Assembly: GCA_030593145.1 (NCBI GenBank)
Contig: JAUVHU010000003.1
Coordinates: 19,984 to 83,983 of the forward strand
Origin: Desulfobacteraceae bacterium
Lineage (GTDB): Bacteria > Desulfobacterota > Desulfobacteria > Desulfobacterales > ETH-SRB1
Direction of reading: 5' to 3'
DNA length: 64,000 nucleotides
Shown: in pieces, positions 6,378-12,840 of the stretch
Layout: each line of letters begins with the position of its first letter
Numbering within the stretch: the stretch's first letter is position 1
Translations under genes and position numbers: made by a program
The notes under the pieces: generated by a model
What the model saw: only the letters and a program-made list of their open reading frames with translations
The model's database searches: none
Told to the model about the DNA's origin: nothing

Positions 6378-6396
6378 GCTATTTTTTACCAGACCG

Positions 6397-6960
6397 TCAA
6401 TAGTAAATTCTATCTGTTAATACTTTCCCGTTTTTCGCAAACCTAATCTTTTCAAGTTCAAGCAAAGACCGTTTCATCTCCGGTCCGCTCATGAATCCAC
6501 CAGAATGGCCGTCTGACCTGACAACCCGATGGCATGGAATAACTATTGGAAACGAATTATGCGATAACGCTGAACCAACCGCCCTCGCGCCGCCGGCAAT
6601 TCCCAGACTCTCTGCAATCCTTCCATAAGTGCTTATCCACCCGCGGGGAATATCAAAACATGCTGAGAGAACCTTTCTTTGAAACTCTGAGCACTCTTCA
6701 AGGGCAACAGCTTCCAGTTTAAAAATAATCGATTCACCCTCAAGAAATTTATTTATCTGTTCGCCAAGCACTTTAATAAAAGAACACGATCGAAAACTCA
6801 CATCAGCGAAATTACTATGGACAAGTTTTTCCAGGGGCTTTCTTTTATCTGATAAAAAAATTCGATAAACTTTTGGCCCATCTATAGTTTCCTGCCAAAC
6901 GACAGCAAATAAGCTAAAAGCCGATGGAATCAATATATAATACATTAAGCTACCATACAA
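6397..6960 (-). CDS. ogt: Methylated-DNA--[protein]-cysteine S-methyltransferase
   Basis: IPRGWISTYGRIAESLG...ARAVGSALSHNSFPIVIPCHRVVRSDGHSGGF; PCHRV active site. Confidence 0.9.
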   Translation of the reverse strand: MYGSLMYYILIPSAFSLFAVVWQETIDGPKVYRIFLSDKRKPLEKLVHSNFADVSFRSCSFIKVLGEQINKFLEGESIIFKLEAVALEECSEFQRKVLSACFDIPRGWISTYGRIAESLGIAGGARAVGSALSHNSFPIVIPCHRVVRSDGHSGGFMSGPEMKRSLLELEKIRFAKNGKVLTDRIYY

Positions 6961-7010
6961 AAAAACAGTTCTTCATTTTAAGTAAGAAAGCCACCGATCT
7001 ACGCTGATCA

Positions 7011-7187
7011 TCACTGATATAATTCTGTAACCGTCTCCAGAACATCTTCCTTGGACAAAAAACCCAGTTTGACCGCTCTGCAGACGAGAAAATCGTCTTC
7101 CTGTACCCTGCTCAATTCGCGCTCATGCGCAAAACGGGCCAGCTCCTGCAACTTTTTACGAATTGATTTTGCATACTGAAGCATCAT
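7011..7187 (-). CDS. Small uncharacterised protein (58 aa)
   Basis: Hand-translated: MMLQYAKSIRKKLQELARFAHERELSRVQEDDFLVCRAVKLGFLSKEDVLETVTELYQ*. Below the 60 aa cutoff of the ORF track; lies downstream of 7263-8201 on the same strand. Confidence 0.5.
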   Translation of the reverse strand: MMLQYAKSIRKKLQELARFAHERELSRVQEDDFLVCRAVKLGFLSKEDVLETVTELYQ

Positions 7188-7262
7188 ATTTTACAATCAT
7201 TTCAATAGGATCTGCATAAATAGATATCAACTAATGTACTGATCAAGATACCAAGTTCTTTT

Positions 7263-8201
7263 TCATTGTCTCCGCGATCTGGGACGAACCGATTTGAAAT
7301 ATTCGACCTGCTTTTTCCAGTTGAAGCCGCAAGCTGTGTGACAATCGAATGGCCCGAACAGGATGTTGTAGTGATAGGATTTACCGCATTTAGGGCAGCT
7401 CAGGTTAAAGGTCAGCACGCCTTCCTCTTCGGCCTCCCGATATCCTTCTATTCCGACAAACTGTATGCTGGCGTTCTGGTCACAGCCATCAGGGCAACGA
7501 AACATAATATAGTGGTCCGAAGCCATTGCGATATCTGGGAGCCTGTAATCAGCGCATCCGCTTAGGGTATAGGTCATAATGTTTGTCCGTGGTTCTCCGG
7601 GTTCCTCTATTTCAACGGTCTTTCGCGTCTCTTTTTTATCGTCCTTATAATAGCGAATCCTTATCAGGCGATCGTATTTTTGGACCATTTTTGCTGTCCC
7701 CTTGCCACCACGGACAATCGTATTGCTGATTTGGGCATTGGCGTAAAATGTGTCCGCATCTCTCACCCAATCTAATTCCTGTTCCCGGAGATTGACGGCC
7801 CTTTCAACTTTTTCGGAAGGCCAGCCCAGCCGAGCGGCAATCATTTTGACATGGTGGATTTCAAGGGGATCGGCTTCTTCAATAATGATTTTGTTGAGTG
7901 ACTCCCACAGAGCTTCGGCAAGATCCTCAAGAACTACGGTCTCTGCCTTTTTGTCGATTTCCTTGTGGTTAGATTGATAAAAATCGTCCCGATCCACGTA
8001 TTTTGTATCGACAAGCATCTCTTCAACGATTTCGTCGATTGCCTCTTGTCGTCTTTCCCTGTACTTATCTTCCTCTATTTTCAAAGGATACAGTATGTTG
8101 GCTACTTCACTTGCCCTCTTTGTGGCGGTTTCCCTGTTGGAGAAGATTGCGCCACCCAATCCCCATGGCTGGTCTGAAATATTCACAAAAACAGTTGTCA
8201 T
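7263..8201 (-). CDS. Uncharacterised protein with C-terminal zinc-ribbon-like cysteine pairs
   Basis: 312 aa ORF; MFRCPDGCDQN...LSCPKCGKSYHYN...FDCHTACGF. Has a promoter-like sequence and palindromic repeats upstream. Family not recognised. Confidence 0.7.
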   Translation of the reverse strand: MTTVFVNISDQPWGLGGAIFSNRETATKRASEVANILYPLKIEEDKYRERRQEAIDEIVEEMLVDTKYVDRDDFYQSNHKEIDKKAETVVLEDLAEALWESLNKIIIEEADPLEIHHVKMIAARLGWPSEKVERAVNLREQELDWVRDADTFYANAQISNTIVRGGKGTAKMVQKYDRLIRIRYYKDDKKETRKTVEIEEPGEPRTNIMTYTLSGCADYRLPDIAMASDHYIMFRCPDGCDQNASIQFVGIEGYREAEEEGVLTFNLSCPKCGKSYHYNILFGPFDCHTACGFNWKKQVEYFKSVRPRSRRQ

Positions 8202-8228
8202 CCTTTCATCCTCCCGCGTTTGATATTA

Positions 8229-8298
8229 TTTGCCAAATATAGCAACTTTAATTGTATTGTCAACCAATAAAATAAAATAAATTTACCATATATAGCAA
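8229..8298 (-). promoter_or_regulatory. Putative promoter with two operator-like repeats upstream of the 312-aa gene
   Basis: On the minus strand TTGACA (8258-8263), 16 bp spacer, TATATT (8236-8241). Two 17-bp repeats tttgccaaatatagcaa (8229-8245) and tttaccatatatagcaa (8282-8298), 15/17 identical. Confidence 0.5.
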
Positions 8299-8460
8299 AT
8301 TAATGAAAGTGTCGTGGTGATAAGAAGGGAATGGTCTTCAAAGGTCAAACGAGAAATCGTCAGGAGCAACATAATGACACCCATATGCCTCATCAGCATG
8401 GTAAGATGCCAACTAATTTACAAATGGACCGCAAGTCCACCCGCTCAGCAGCTTTTTTAC

Positions 8461-8506
8461 TTGACATCTCAATCTGATTAGAATATGTATTTGTACAAGT
8501 ACATAT
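8461..8506 (+). promoter_or_regulatory. Putative promoter and palindromic operator of the MerR-like/methyltransferase/nuclease operon
   Basis: TTGACA (8461-8466), 17 bp spacer, TATGTA (8484-8489). Inverted repeat atatgtatttgtacaagtacatat at 8483-8506 overlaps the -10. Confidence 0.55.
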
Positions 8507-8552
8507 CGTAGTTACTTTCTTTCCCATTCTCCATCACTTTAAAGGATTTATT

Positions 8553-8807
8553 ATGAACGCAGGAGACATCCTTCAACAAGCTGATGGTCTTACCCATGAC
8601 AAGCTCACATACTTTGTCAGAGCTGGTTATCTCAATCCAAAAAAAATCAAAAAAGGTTCTCTAAATTATAACAAATTTTCAGGAAAAGATTTGTTTCTTG
8701 TCAAACGTGCTTGGGAATACATCAAAACATACGACATGAAAACAAAAGCCGCCTTTAAACGGGCTGAAAATGAGTTTAAAGACCCACAGATGGCTCTATG
8801 GAGATAA
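8553..8807 (+). CDS. Small MerR-like HTH regulator (84 aa)
   Basis: LTYFVRAGYLNPKKIKKGSLNYNKFSGKDLFLVKRAWEYI resembles a MerR-type winged HTH. Confidence 0.6.
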   Translation: MNAGDILQQADGLTHDKLTYFVRAGYLNPKKIKKGSLNYNKFSGKDLFLVKRAWEYIKTYDMKTKAAFKRAENEFKDPQMALWR

Positions 8808-8903
8808 TGTCTAATATGCAAACCAGCGGCCTGATGGTTTGTTCAACAGAAATAGAAAGATTACACCAGAGAGCAAAGCCAAATGCTCTAAATAGAGGCT
8901 GGC

Positions 8904-11891
8904 ATGAACAACCTTTCTAATAATGACTTCATGGACATCCTGATGAAGTTTGACATGATGCCAGAAACAGGTAAATCGTCTGGATTGGTTTTTGTTGGAA
9001 AAGAGAAGCGAGATAACAGTGAAGTGATAGCTCTGGAATATGCTAAAAAATACGGAGCCGATGCTGTATATTTCAGGCGGTTTGATGGTGGCCGCCCCCC
9101 GATCCCACAGATTTATATATATGATTTTACTGAAAATGAAAAGGATGATGATGAAATAGGTGTTTTATATAAAAGATTATGGAATTTTGGCCAGGTCCCG
9201 CTTTTTTTTATTTTTTATAAAACTGAAGTTAAGATTTTCAACTGCCTGAAACATCCAAAACTTGATCCATCAACCGGAGATATATCATATTCAGTCTTTG
9301 AAACGATTAACTTAGCCTCAAATATAAAGAAAGAATTGGACAAAACAAAGGACTTTTCAGCAAAGCGATTTGATAATGGCACATTTTGGACCAACCCCAA
9401 ATATAAAGACAGATTTAAGTTAAAAGATACAGTATATTTAAAATTATTAAATGAATTAAAGCGGACAAGAACAGATATAATCAAAAGCAAAATTCTGAAA
9501 GATGAAATCGCTCAAAAGCTCTTTGTTATGTCGATCCTTGTTAAGTATCTTGAGGAACGGGAGGATGAAAACGGTGTTAAAGTTTTTCCATCAGGGTTCT
9601 TTAGCGATTTTTCAGATGGACATGATACTTTTTTGGGCGTTTTGAGGAAAAAGGGGGCGTGCCTTGATCTGTTCGACTATTTAGGTAGTAAAGACTGTTT
9701 TAACGGCGAGATTTTCAAATGGAAAGATGAAAAAGAGAGAGAAACTTTAAAAAACGCAGACCTTAAACCTTTTGCAGATTTTTTCGAAGGAAAACTGGAT
9801 GGCCGCCAGTATACATTCTGGAGGCTCTATTCTTTTAATGACCTGCCCATAGAATTAATCAGCAATATTTATGAGGAATTCCTGGAATCTAAAAAAGGCA
9901 TCGTTTATACGCCCCCATATTTAGTCAATTTTCTTATTGATGAGCAGATGCCTCTTACCGACTTTCATAAGACTGATTTCAAGGCTATTGATCCGGCTTG
10001 CGGGTCAGGTGTTTTTCTGGTTGCCGCATTTCGGAGAATGATACACTGGTGGAGAATTCGAAATGATTGGAAAAAACCGGATGCTAACAATCTGAAAGAA
10101 TTAAAAAAGATTCTCAAAAATAATATCTTTGGCGTTGATATGCATGAAGAAGCTGTGCGCCTGACATTTTTCAGTTTAAGCCTGGCCTTGCTGGACGAGC
10201 TGTCACCTAAAGTGATATGGGAAAATCTAAAATTTGACAACCTGCGGGAAAGCAACCTAATAAGCAAAGATTTTTTTAAATTAATAAAGGATAATTTTTT
10301 CCAATCTGATTTTGACCTTGTGATTGGGAACCCACCTTTTGAGTCTAAATTAACTACTGCTGATGCAAAACAGATTGAACAACAAAAAATAAAGGAAAGA
10401 CCAAAACTGCCTGATAACCAGATTGCTTTGCTGTTCCTTGAGCAGGCCATGAACCTGTGCAAAGAAGGGTCCCATCTCTGCTTAATCATGCCTTCCGGGC
10501 CGTTTCTTTACAACAACAATTCTGTGGAATATAGAAAATACTTTTTAAGCGCTTATCATGTGCCTCAAATAATAGATTTTACCTTTTTAAGCGCGGTTCT
10601 CTTTCAAAGTGCAAATGTTGCTGTAGCAGCCGTTTTTGCAAAAAAACAGAGTCCCACCAAAGAAGATCTGCTTCATGTAACAGTGAGAAGAACAAAGCCG
10701 GCCAAGGAAAAGCTGTATTTTGAATTGGACTACTATGATTTCCATAGGATATCCCACCAGGAGGCATTAGAAAACAGGCTTGTCTGGAAAGCAAACTTAT
10801 TAGGGGGCGGAAGGTTAAAGCACCTTATGGCAAGATTTGCGCCCCTGAGAACCTTAGGCGATTATTTAAAGGAAGCTAAAAATAAACATGGCTGGGCAAT
10901 TGCAGAAGGATTCATAGTTGGCAATAGAGAAAATATAGATGAGCTAATAAAACTTAAGGCAAGTGCAGGAATATTATCCCTGAAAGATAGAAAAAGACTA
11001 GAAAGGTTGGAAAATAAATATAAAAAAGCAGACTATCTTACAGATAAAAAGACCTTACCTCGGGATGCGCTCACCGAAGAAGGGATTGTTGAGGCTGAAA
11101 TTCACCCTTTAAGAGAAGAATATTTTGAACGGAATAGGCAAAGAAATAAGCTAATTTTTAAAGGCCCACATTTGTTAATTAAAGAAAAAGTTACGAAAAA
11201 TTCAATCCCAATAGCATTTAGAAATAATGACCTATCTTTCCAACATGACATTATAGGTATTCACGCCCCTGAAGACCAAATAGACAAATTATTACAGATT
11301 GAAAAGCGAATCAAAAATAATAAAACTTGCCTTTTCTATGTTGCAGGATATAGCGGATGTTACATGATCGGGCGGGCTACATCTATTTTAAAAGAAGATT
11401 TCGGAAGCCTGCCCTTTCCTGAAGATGAAACGGAGCTTGAACTTACTGAAATTGAACAGATTTTAGTGGATGATGTTTTGGATTATATGCTCGATTTCCG
11501 GAAAAAAGGTGAAACGTCTGTTGCTGAAAAACCTGTTAATGATCATCAGTTGCATCGATTCTCGGAAACATATTGCAGGGTTTTAAATTCAGTATATAAA
11601 GAGTTCAAACCATACAAGCCGCTAAAAACCGGCTCATTTATCTGTTTCCCGTTTTACTACAAGGATAAACCTCAAATTAAAACAGAAAATCCGGATGAAC
11701 TTGAAGCAGCTTTATATGAGCTAATCCAAAACAATACCAGCACGAATTCAAGAATTGTTAGAATGTTGAGGGTTTATGAAAACAACACTATTTATCTGAT
11801 AAAACCCAAACAGACACGCTACTGGCTACGATCTGTTGCTATTCGTGATGCAGACGATACTTTTACTGATCTGGTTGTTCAAGGATATTAA
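8904..11891 (+). CDS. Eco57I-like class I SAM-dependent N6-adenine DNA methyltransferase (restriction-modification type)
   Basis: Motif I AIDPACGSGVFLVAAF, motif IV DLVIGNPPFESK, long C-terminal region consistent with a target-recognition domain; 995 aa. Confidence 0.88.
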   Translation: MNNLSNNDFMDILMKFDMMPETGKSSGLVFVGKEKRDNSEVIALEYAKKYGADAVYFRRFDGGRPPIPQIYIYDFTENEKDDDEIGVLYKRLWNFGQVPLFFIFYKTEVKIFNCLKHPKLDPSTGDISYSVFETINLASNIKKELDKTKDFSAKRFDNGTFWTNPKYKDRFKLKDTVYLKLLNELKRTRTDIIKSKILKDEIAQKLFVMSILVKYLEEREDENGVKVFPSGFFSDFSDGHDTFLGVLRKKGACLDLFDYLGSKDCFNGEIFKWKDEKERETLKNADLKPFADFFEGKLDGRQYTFWRLYSFNDLPIELISNIYEEFLESKKGIVYTPPYLVNFLIDEQMPLTDFHKTDFKAIDPACGSGVFLVAAFRRMIHWWRIRNDWKKPDANNLKELKKILKNNIFGVDMHEEAVRLTFFSLSLALLDELSPKVIWENLKFDNLRESNLISKDFFKLIKDNFFQSDFDLVIGNPPFESKLTTADAKQIEQQKIKERPKLPDNQIALLFLEQAMNLCKEGSHLCLIMPSGPFLYNNNSVEYRKYFLSAYHVPQIIDFTFLSAVLFQSANVAVAAVFAKKQSPTKEDLLHVTVRRTKPAKEKLYFELDYYDFHRISHQEALENRLVWKANLLGGGRLKHLMARFAPLRTLGDYLKEAKNKHGWAIAEGFIVGNRENIDELIKLKASAGILSLKDRKRLERLENKYKKADYLTDKKTLPRDALTEEGIVEAEIHPLREEYFERNRQRNKLIFKGPHLLIKEKVTKNSIPIAFRNNDLSFQHDIIGIHAPEDQIDKLLQIEKRIKNNKTCLFYVAGYSGCYMIGRATSILKEDFGSLPFPEDETELELTEIEQILVDDVLDYMLDFRKKGETSVAEKPVNDHQLHRFSETYCRVLNSVYKEFKPYKPLKTGSFICFPFYYKDKPQIKTENPDELEAALYELIQNNTSTNSRIVRMLRVYENNTIYLIKPKQTRYWLRSVAIRDADDTFTDLVVQGY

Positions 11892-11894
11892 TTA

Positions 11895-12611
11895 ATGCTT
11901 GCCGATACTCATAAATCCATGGCATCAGGAAAAATAGAAGGACCGGAAATAGACGCCCATATAATTGCTGTCGTGGATTTTGTTGAGCGGATTTTGATCA
12001 CATTTTCAGATAAATATGCCGACTCGGATATAAAAAATGAAAAAGGATTAACCCAGAAACTCGTATTAATCTTAAATTCTCATGCATTACGTGAGTACTA
12101 TTCATTCTGGTTTGACAAGGAATATATGGAAATCCCCGAACGCGGCGACAGTCCACAGGTTGATATCGGAACAATAACCACCCTTGAAAAAGGCATTGTA
12201 ATCGACGCAAAAACATATACGGATGAATCCTTTTTTTCTATGGAGGCAAAAAGATTAGGCAATTTAGGAAAAAAAAGGTCAAAAGAATATCTGATCGGCC
12301 GATATGAAAACGAGAAATATATCCATTGCGGTGGTGTTGAACGGTTTAAACAGGAGAAACACGGTAGAAATTTAGAGTATGGGGCTATTATCGGTTATGT
12401 TCAGGAACATGACTTTACTTACTGGTACGACCGCATTAATTTATGGATTGATGGTTTGATCCAAAAGAACTTATATTCTCCAGTGCCCTGGCTATTAAAA
12501 GACAAGCTGAAAAAAGATTATATCAGATCAACCACCGCAAAGTTTATTTCAACAACCTCCCGAAAAAATGATTTTATTACGCTGTTTCATCTGTGGACAA
12601 GATTAAATTAA
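11895..12611 (+). CDS. Putative PD-(D/E)XK nuclease, partner of the upstream methyltransferase
   Basis: Starts 4 nt after the methyltransferase stop. QVDIGTI ... FFSMEAKRLG fits D...ExK; followed by GGVERFKQEKHGRNLEYGAIIGYVQ. Confidence 0.65.
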   Translation: MLADTHKSMASGKIEGPEIDAHIIAVVDFVERILITFSDKYADSDIKNEKGLTQKLVLILNSHALREYYSFWFDKEYMEIPERGDSPQVDIGTITTLEKGIVIDAKTYTDESFFSMEAKRLGNLGKKRSKEYLIGRYENEKYIHCGGVERFKQEKHGRNLEYGAIIGYVQEHDFTYWYDRINLWIDGLIQKNLYSPVPWLLKDKLKKDYIRSTTAKFISTTSRKNDFITLFHLWTRLN

Positions 12612-12840
12612 CGGGTAAAACGTGCCGGAAAAAATTCAGACCAATTTCTTCGACTTTTAATACAACATACCTCTGCTCCGATTTGTGTAATGGAGTCACC
12701 CATTAGATGCAACCTGGCAATGTTGCGCAAACTTGCAGGAGGGAATTCTGCTCAGGTAGCCGTTTCGGTAACATCACGATAAAATTTGTTAAGAGGCAAA
12801 TAACTTTGCCCAGCCATAAACATTGTCCATGTTTATTTGG

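Follow-up and report, generated by a model that had tools for sequence, protein, structure and literature searches.

A candidate split, Type IIG-like restriction-modification system pairing a methyltransferase-specificity protein with a separate predicted nuclease

Type IIG restriction-modification (RM) enzymes, such as Eco57I, BpuSI, MmeI and DrdV, combine a gamma-class adenine methyltransferase with a C-terminal recognition domain. Their cleavage domain is N-terminal on the same polypeptide (PMC3874165, PMC4081073), and the single recognition domain governs cleavage as well as methylation (PMC4081073). Other RM systems distribute restriction (R), modification (M) and specificity (S) differently: over the subunits HsdR, HsdM and HsdS in Type I, over separate R and M genes in Type IIH (AhdI) and in orthodox Type II pairs with gamma-class methyltransferases, and over an R-M fusion and a separate S in BcgI-type (Type IIB) systems. 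Here we analyse a locus in a window of 64,000 nt (the whole stretch of DNA under study) from a Desulfobacteraceae bacterium (GCA_030593145.1, contig JAUVHU010000003.1, positions 19,984-83,983, forward strand). Three consecutive open reading frames (ORFs) on its + strand encode a helix-turn-helix (HTH) protein of 84 amino acids (aa), a 995-aa methyltransferase fused to a specificity domain (M~S) and a 238-aa protein that we predict to be a nuclease (Table 1). We propose that the last two form an RM system with Type IIG-like logic split over two genes, in which M~S would find and methylate the target while the separate R would cut unmodified sites, and we give this reading a probability of roughly 0.6.

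The ORFs are those listed in an earlier note on this DNA, and the motifs that it had pointed out (DPACGSGVFL, NPPF, VDIG...FFSMEAKRLG and GGVERFKQEKHG...IIGYVQ) are all in place. Its claim of close coupling between the two larger genes also stands, with 3 nt between the methyltransferase stop and the nuclease ATG. The 995-aa protein matches the Pfam families Eco57I (6.6e-24) and N6_Mtase (6e-19). Its DPACGSG and NPPF motifs, the alignment and the fold identify it as a gamma-class N6-adenine methyltransferase. The fold matches of its AlphaFold model (METHYLTRANSFERASE; predicted local distance difference test, pLDDT, 86.2) in Foldseek include BpuSI and DrdV, as well as CamA, BrxX/PglX and M.BseCI.

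The protein thus resembles Type IIG enzymes in its catalytic domain and its C-terminal recognition domain. It may also use one recognition domain for both activities, as exchanges of this domain next to a constant nuclease indirectly support (see below). It differs from them in its N-terminal domain, which is devoid of catalytic residues, and in the location of the nuclease on another protein. Residues 28-114, which correspond in position to the Type IIG nuclease, are modelled as an alpha-beta-beta-alpha-beta-beta unit. In 60 aligned sequences, residues 24-122 contain no conserved D...ExK set and no conserved acidic pair with a lysine: position 53 mostly holds D, R, H or Q, either E or R occurs at position 58, and in the strand expected to carry ExK, (V/I)(A/P)Q precedes hydrophobic and aromatic residues. 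This suggests a degenerate, decayed nuclease domain, and the active N-terminal R domain of Type IIG enzymes is apparently missing from this chain. One could still argue that the 995-aa protein is a Type IIG enzyme complete in itself and that the small protein is a nuclease with an accessory role, such as attacking modified DNA or serving as an anti-phage effector. In favour of this, the PADLOC Type IIG models (REase_MTase_IIG) match the 995-aa protein at 1.9e-42 and span nearly the whole length of a distant relative, and the order of elements in the N-terminal domain is nuclease-like. We regard this reading as improbable, given the lack of a conserved acid-acid-lysine set in that domain and a small nuclease that is almost never missing. 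The same two observations, absent catalytic residues and near-universal adjacency, disfavour a complete Type IIG enzyme lying next to an unrelated gene. PADLOC labels such methyltransferases as complete Type IIG enzymes, and a real nuclease gene would therefore be overlooked.

The other systems resemble the locus in part. As in Type I systems, the gamma-class methyltransferase would recruit R as a separate subunit, but this R has 238 aa and no helicase or translocase, and recognition is fused to M. We rejected a Type I assignment, since the R protein has no helicase match and the operon has no S gene. BcgI-type systems are also Type IIG relatives split into two proteins, but they keep the R-M fusion and separate S, whereas this locus separates R and keeps S fused to M. 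The closest solved folds of the methyltransferase core are those of CamA, the orphan methyltransferase of C. difficile, and of BrxX/PglX. In contrast with our protein, CamA is a solitary methyltransferase of around 577 aa and BrxX works with the other proteins of bacteriophage exclusion (BREX) systems. The likeness to BrxX/PglX would be compatible with a defence akin to BREX or Pgl, with self marked by the methyltransferase and phages stopped by the small protein through something other than ordinary restriction cleavage. However, the PglX models score far below their cut-offs, the neighbours in the window are ogt, a zinc-ribbon gene and cfa, the partner genes BrxC and PglZ are absent, and neither the window nor the annotated relatives examined have a further BREX gene next to the pair. 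We consequently rejected BREX as an assignment and regard a defence of that kind as very improbable.

The case for a nuclease comes from the residues and the predicted topology of the 238-aa protein. In 73 aligned relatives, twelve positions are invariant (E49, F73, E76, D90, E117, K119, L121, G146, R150, K152, H156 and W177), including the E...D...(D/E)xK set of PD-(D/E)XK nucleases (E49, D90, E117, K119). In the AlphaFold model (AF2; mean pLDDT 88.7), E49 opens a helix (residues 49-66) and the other three residues lie in two strands (Table 1), after which come a short helix, a strand (162-169) and a helix (174-191). The resulting order, alpha-beta-beta-beta-alpha-beta, is that of the PD-(D/E)XK core. 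The best fold match in the PDB, NucC, is itself a PD-(D/E)XK nuclease, but the match is weak, and viral protein structures gave no significant match. The assignment to the PD-(D/E)XK type, with a predicted activity, is thus supported by the invariance of the active site and by the topology, and the fold search is not its ground.

Scanning genome contigs, we found 107 relatives and obtained 80 loci. These come from Desulfobacterota (the phylum of the Desulfobacteraceae), Bacteroidota, Verrucomicrobiota, Planctomycetota, Alpha- and Gammaproteobacteria, Acidobacteria and others, and gene order is kept across them beyond what chance would give. Plasmid records add further loci, including a tumour-inducing (Ti) plasmid and rhizobial plasmids. 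Using the nuclease as bait, we counted adjacency in the 92 loci with at least 600 nt of upstream DNA, which are not 92 independent events because some are near-identical (L050, L056-L060). An intact methyltransferase ORF abuts or overlaps the nuclease in 87 of them, often by only a few nt, and an adjacent but frame-disrupted one is found in four. The sole locus lacking an adjacent methyltransferase, L093, is also the only one from viral contigs (phage records gave no match). We do not consider it an orphan nuclease: in this viral-collection contig (L093:1-700), DNA that we read as transposase-like breaks the start of the nuclease gene.

To avoid the bias of the bait, we also searched with a methyltransferase profile in 395 genomes of Desulfobacterota and 385 of Alphaproteobacteria (E≤1e-60). 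There were ten matches, including the genome of the window and the seed genome G396, and nine of them adjoin a nuclease gene supported by its profile. The tenth (L103) is next to a truncated nuclease homologue, identified by visual comparison with L104. A distant branch comprises six of these ten matches (L103-L105, L114-L116) and L107, found through the nuclease profile; in it, intact methyltransferases mostly have 1033-1076 aa and intact nucleases keep IECK, AIEAK, YECK or CECK. The earlier note had seen in the small protein a separate, translationally coupled PD-(D/E)XK-like nuclease and had proposed to verify this by AlphaFold modelling of 11895-12611 and by a neighbourhood search; the modelled topology, the invariant E/D/ExK residues and the near-universal co-occurrence of the two genes all agree with it. 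Its broader suggestion of a candidate uncharacterised restriction module is also supported, and the literature and profile libraries searched yielded no named system.

Two further observations concern these loci. Frame-disrupted methyltransferases stand beside intact nuclease ORFs in L013 (5117-7994) and L049. If such alleles are real and not assembly errors, the nuclease would be non-toxic when the methyltransferase does not work, which would fit a guided nuclease. Copies on Ti and other plasmids (L003, L005, L010, L012) lie beside AbiH, SIR2, TIR and ATPase genes, suggesting that plasmid copies occupy defence islands on mobile DNA.

The evidence on how the nuclease may be targeted comes from the recognition domain. 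Sliding identity profiles reveal that methyltransferase residues ~640-845 change abruptly between otherwise near-identical enzymes. In the pair L063/L067, identity is mostly 82-100% before residue 620, 90-100% after residue 860 and 24-46% in between, while the nucleases are 82% identical. The same type of drop is seen in L021/L029, L054/L055, L063/L092 and L023/L025, and the nucleases of L054/L055 are 87% identical despite the exchanged domains. The reverse pattern is found in L047/L055 (recognition domain 84%, rest 70%, nuclease 58%) and indicates horizontal exchange. At 60% identity, the recognition domains fall into 34 clusters and the catalytic domains into 8. The nuclease correlates more closely with the methyltransferase backbone (r 0.92-0.95) than with the recognition domain (r 0.81), and among close pairs its identity is 67% in the 17 with an exchanged domain and 71% in the 45 without exchange. 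Even its variable stretch (residues ~181-225) is only 55-58% identical in L074/L082, which share a recognition domain, but 86-97% identical in L054/L055, which do not.

A single PD-(D/E)XK core in 238 aa is a usual size of a Type IIP enzyme. Together with the separate R and M genes, as in Type IIH, this size speaks for an orthodox Type II pair, in which the 238-aa protein would be an independent sequence-specific restriction endonuclease linked to the methyltransferase by chance. However, the R proteins of such pairs recognise their own target, and an endonuclease of this kind should change along with its methyltransferase, whereas a guided nuclease would not. Nucleases that stay up to 82-87% identical across exchanged domains, that follow the backbone far better than the recognition domain, and whose variable stretch differs under a shared domain and is near constant under exchanged ones therefore favour guidance, and leave the orthodox pair unlikely. 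We regard the exchanges as strong support, but not proof, since the pairs are phylogenetically non-independent, for a nuclease aimed by the methyltransferase in a split, Type IIG-like R + M~S system.

In the split system that we propose, the 995-aa protein would read the DNA target through its C-terminal recognition domain, while its gamma-class catalytic domain would methylate an adenine; the nuclease residues of the N-terminal domain have presumably been lost. The 238-aa protein, translated from the same mRNA, would dock on the DNA-bound methyltransferase and cut unmodified sites, such that one exchangeable recognition domain would set both methylation and cleavage. The upstream DNA-binding protein, MerR-like in this locus, would repress its own promoter through a palindrome and thereby time the operon. 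Several points weigh against this proposal. Searches gave nothing credible for the 238-aa protein (Pfam, PADLOC, NCBIfam, PHROGs, PDB sequences) or for its family as a whole (Pfam, PADLOC, PDB sequences), so that Pfam, PADLOC and the PDB lend the nuclease no support at the sequence level, and its Foldseek matches are not significant (best E 0.012, template-modelling score 0.33). A slight correlation remains between the recognition domain and the nuclease (partial r 0.16, Mantel p 0.0025), which favours the orthodox pair. The idea of a dead N-terminal nuclease is drawn from topology and absent residues, docking is deduced from evolutionary evidence, and methylation, cleavage and phage resistance are predictions.

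The 84-aa protein has no direct Pfam match, but one protein to which it is 36% identical (1e-10) clears the Pfam MerR_1 cut-off. It also matches TnrA weakly, and its homologues are annotated as MerR family. Transitive homology thus places it in the MerR superfamily, with a predicted MerR-type winged HTH. MerR proteins act on the promoter spacer and usually have an effector domain. In contrast, the 84-aa protein has none, and the palindrome at 8483-8506 covers the expected -10/+1 region rather than lying inside the spacer. This palindrome, through which the protein may repress its own gene, is mostly kept in L013 and L016, and its ATATGTATTTGTACAAGT is invariant across the three loci. Homology with the relatives starts at 8453, just 5' of the TTGACA element.

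The regulator slot is variable. Among 83 loci, it is occupied by ribbon-helix-helix (RHH)-like proteins in 36, by Xre/HTH_3 proteins in 4 and by MerR-like proteins in 2, with none detected in 41; L013, which has a MerR-like protein, is outside this count as its methyltransferase is frame-disrupted. A small MerR-like controller, as put forward in the earlier note, is hence well founded for the clade of the window but not elsewhere. We rejected the regulator as a defining gene because unrelated families replace it, and the core is therefore the M~S + R pair with exchangeable controllers. In several loci of the distant branch, we recognised by eye S24-type repressors upstream of the methyltransferase, including HTH + S24-type (CI/LexA-like) proteins of 206-233 aa (L104:7632-8282, L107:6563-7183, L114:1261-1962). 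These may tie the operon to DNA damage in that branch.

Table 1. Coordinates of the features of the locus in the window.
Feature	Position	Strand	Basis
TTGACA, candidate -35 element of the module promoter	8461-8466	+	Sequence; also kept in L013 and L016; putative promoter function
24-bp near-perfect palindrome ATATGTATTTGT/ACAAGTACATAT, candidate operator for the 84-aa regulator	8483-8506		Arms 92% complementary; predicted binding
84-aa MerR-superfamily HTH protein, candidate autoregulator	8553-8807	+	Transitive homology; no effector domain
995-aa gamma-class N6-adenine methyltransferase with fused specificity domain (M~S)	8904-11891	+	Eco57I/N6_Mtase, PADLOC REase_MTase_IIG, fold
Methyltransferase N-terminal domain (residues 28-114), in the position of the nuclease domain in Type IIG enzymes	8985-9245	+	AlphaFold topology and alignment
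Exchangeable target-recognition domain (methyltransferase residues ~640-845)	10821-11438	+	Sliding identity in close pairs, partial correlation, clusters
238-aa PD-(D/E)XK-type nuclease subunit (predicted), unnamed family	11895-12611	+	Invariant residues, AF2 topology, adjacency
Nuclease D90, in strand 88-95	12162-12164	+	Invariant in 73/73 relatives
Nuclease E117-x-K119, in strand 112-121	12243-12251	+	Invariant in 73/73 relatives

The RM unit and its promoter span ~4.4 kb between homology borders at ~8453-12835. L013 shares this segment at 88-91% DNA identity, yet at a different site. The G+C content of the module is 36.8%, against 40-42%, and its GC skew is reversed. In G370, a genome of the same family, a PP2C gene abuts cfa, with no ogt, zinc-ribbon gene or RM unit; relative to it, the window has an extra stretch of ~6.4 kb, from the end of the PP2C gene (6377) to the stop of cfa (12841). 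The 4-kb insertion between ogt/zinc-ribbon genes and cfa described in the earlier note is thus recovered as a 4.4-kb mobile unit, but one that lies in a larger insertion including these genes. This stretch (6378-12840) carries ogt, the gene of a 312-aa zinc-ribbon protein and the RM unit, and the first two may have arrived as cargo, in this insertion or in an earlier one. An 80-bp stretch between ogt and the zinc-ribbon gene (7128-7207) recurs in L013 (4470-4549, 87.5%) just upstream of the RM unit, the remaining flanks being different, and is possibly a trace of transfer.

Each part of the system is of a known kind, while the partition into R and M~S and the unnamed nuclease family appear to be new: we found no description of this arrangement in the literature, in a search that mostly stopped short of subscription papers and did not extend to REBASE. 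Dozens of loci in several phyla, some on plasmids including Ti plasmids, encode a nuclease that the profile libraries searched do not recognise. They may represent a widespread natural R + M~S class, Type IIG-like, in which a separate nuclease, recruited in trans, took the place of the decayed fused one and recognition domains are exchangeable in one step. Such a class would stand, as a living intermediate, between Type IIG enzymes of one chain and classical pairs with separate R and M, a view to which we would give even odds. In one evolutionary model, separate R and M enzymes descend from fused enzymes through duplication and loss (PMC6158711). This model needs intermediates, and the nuclease/M~S family is a candidate living one that makes it testable. 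If cleavage follows the exchanged recognition domain, the system would be a modular enzyme whose cutter, reader and methylator can be studied separately.

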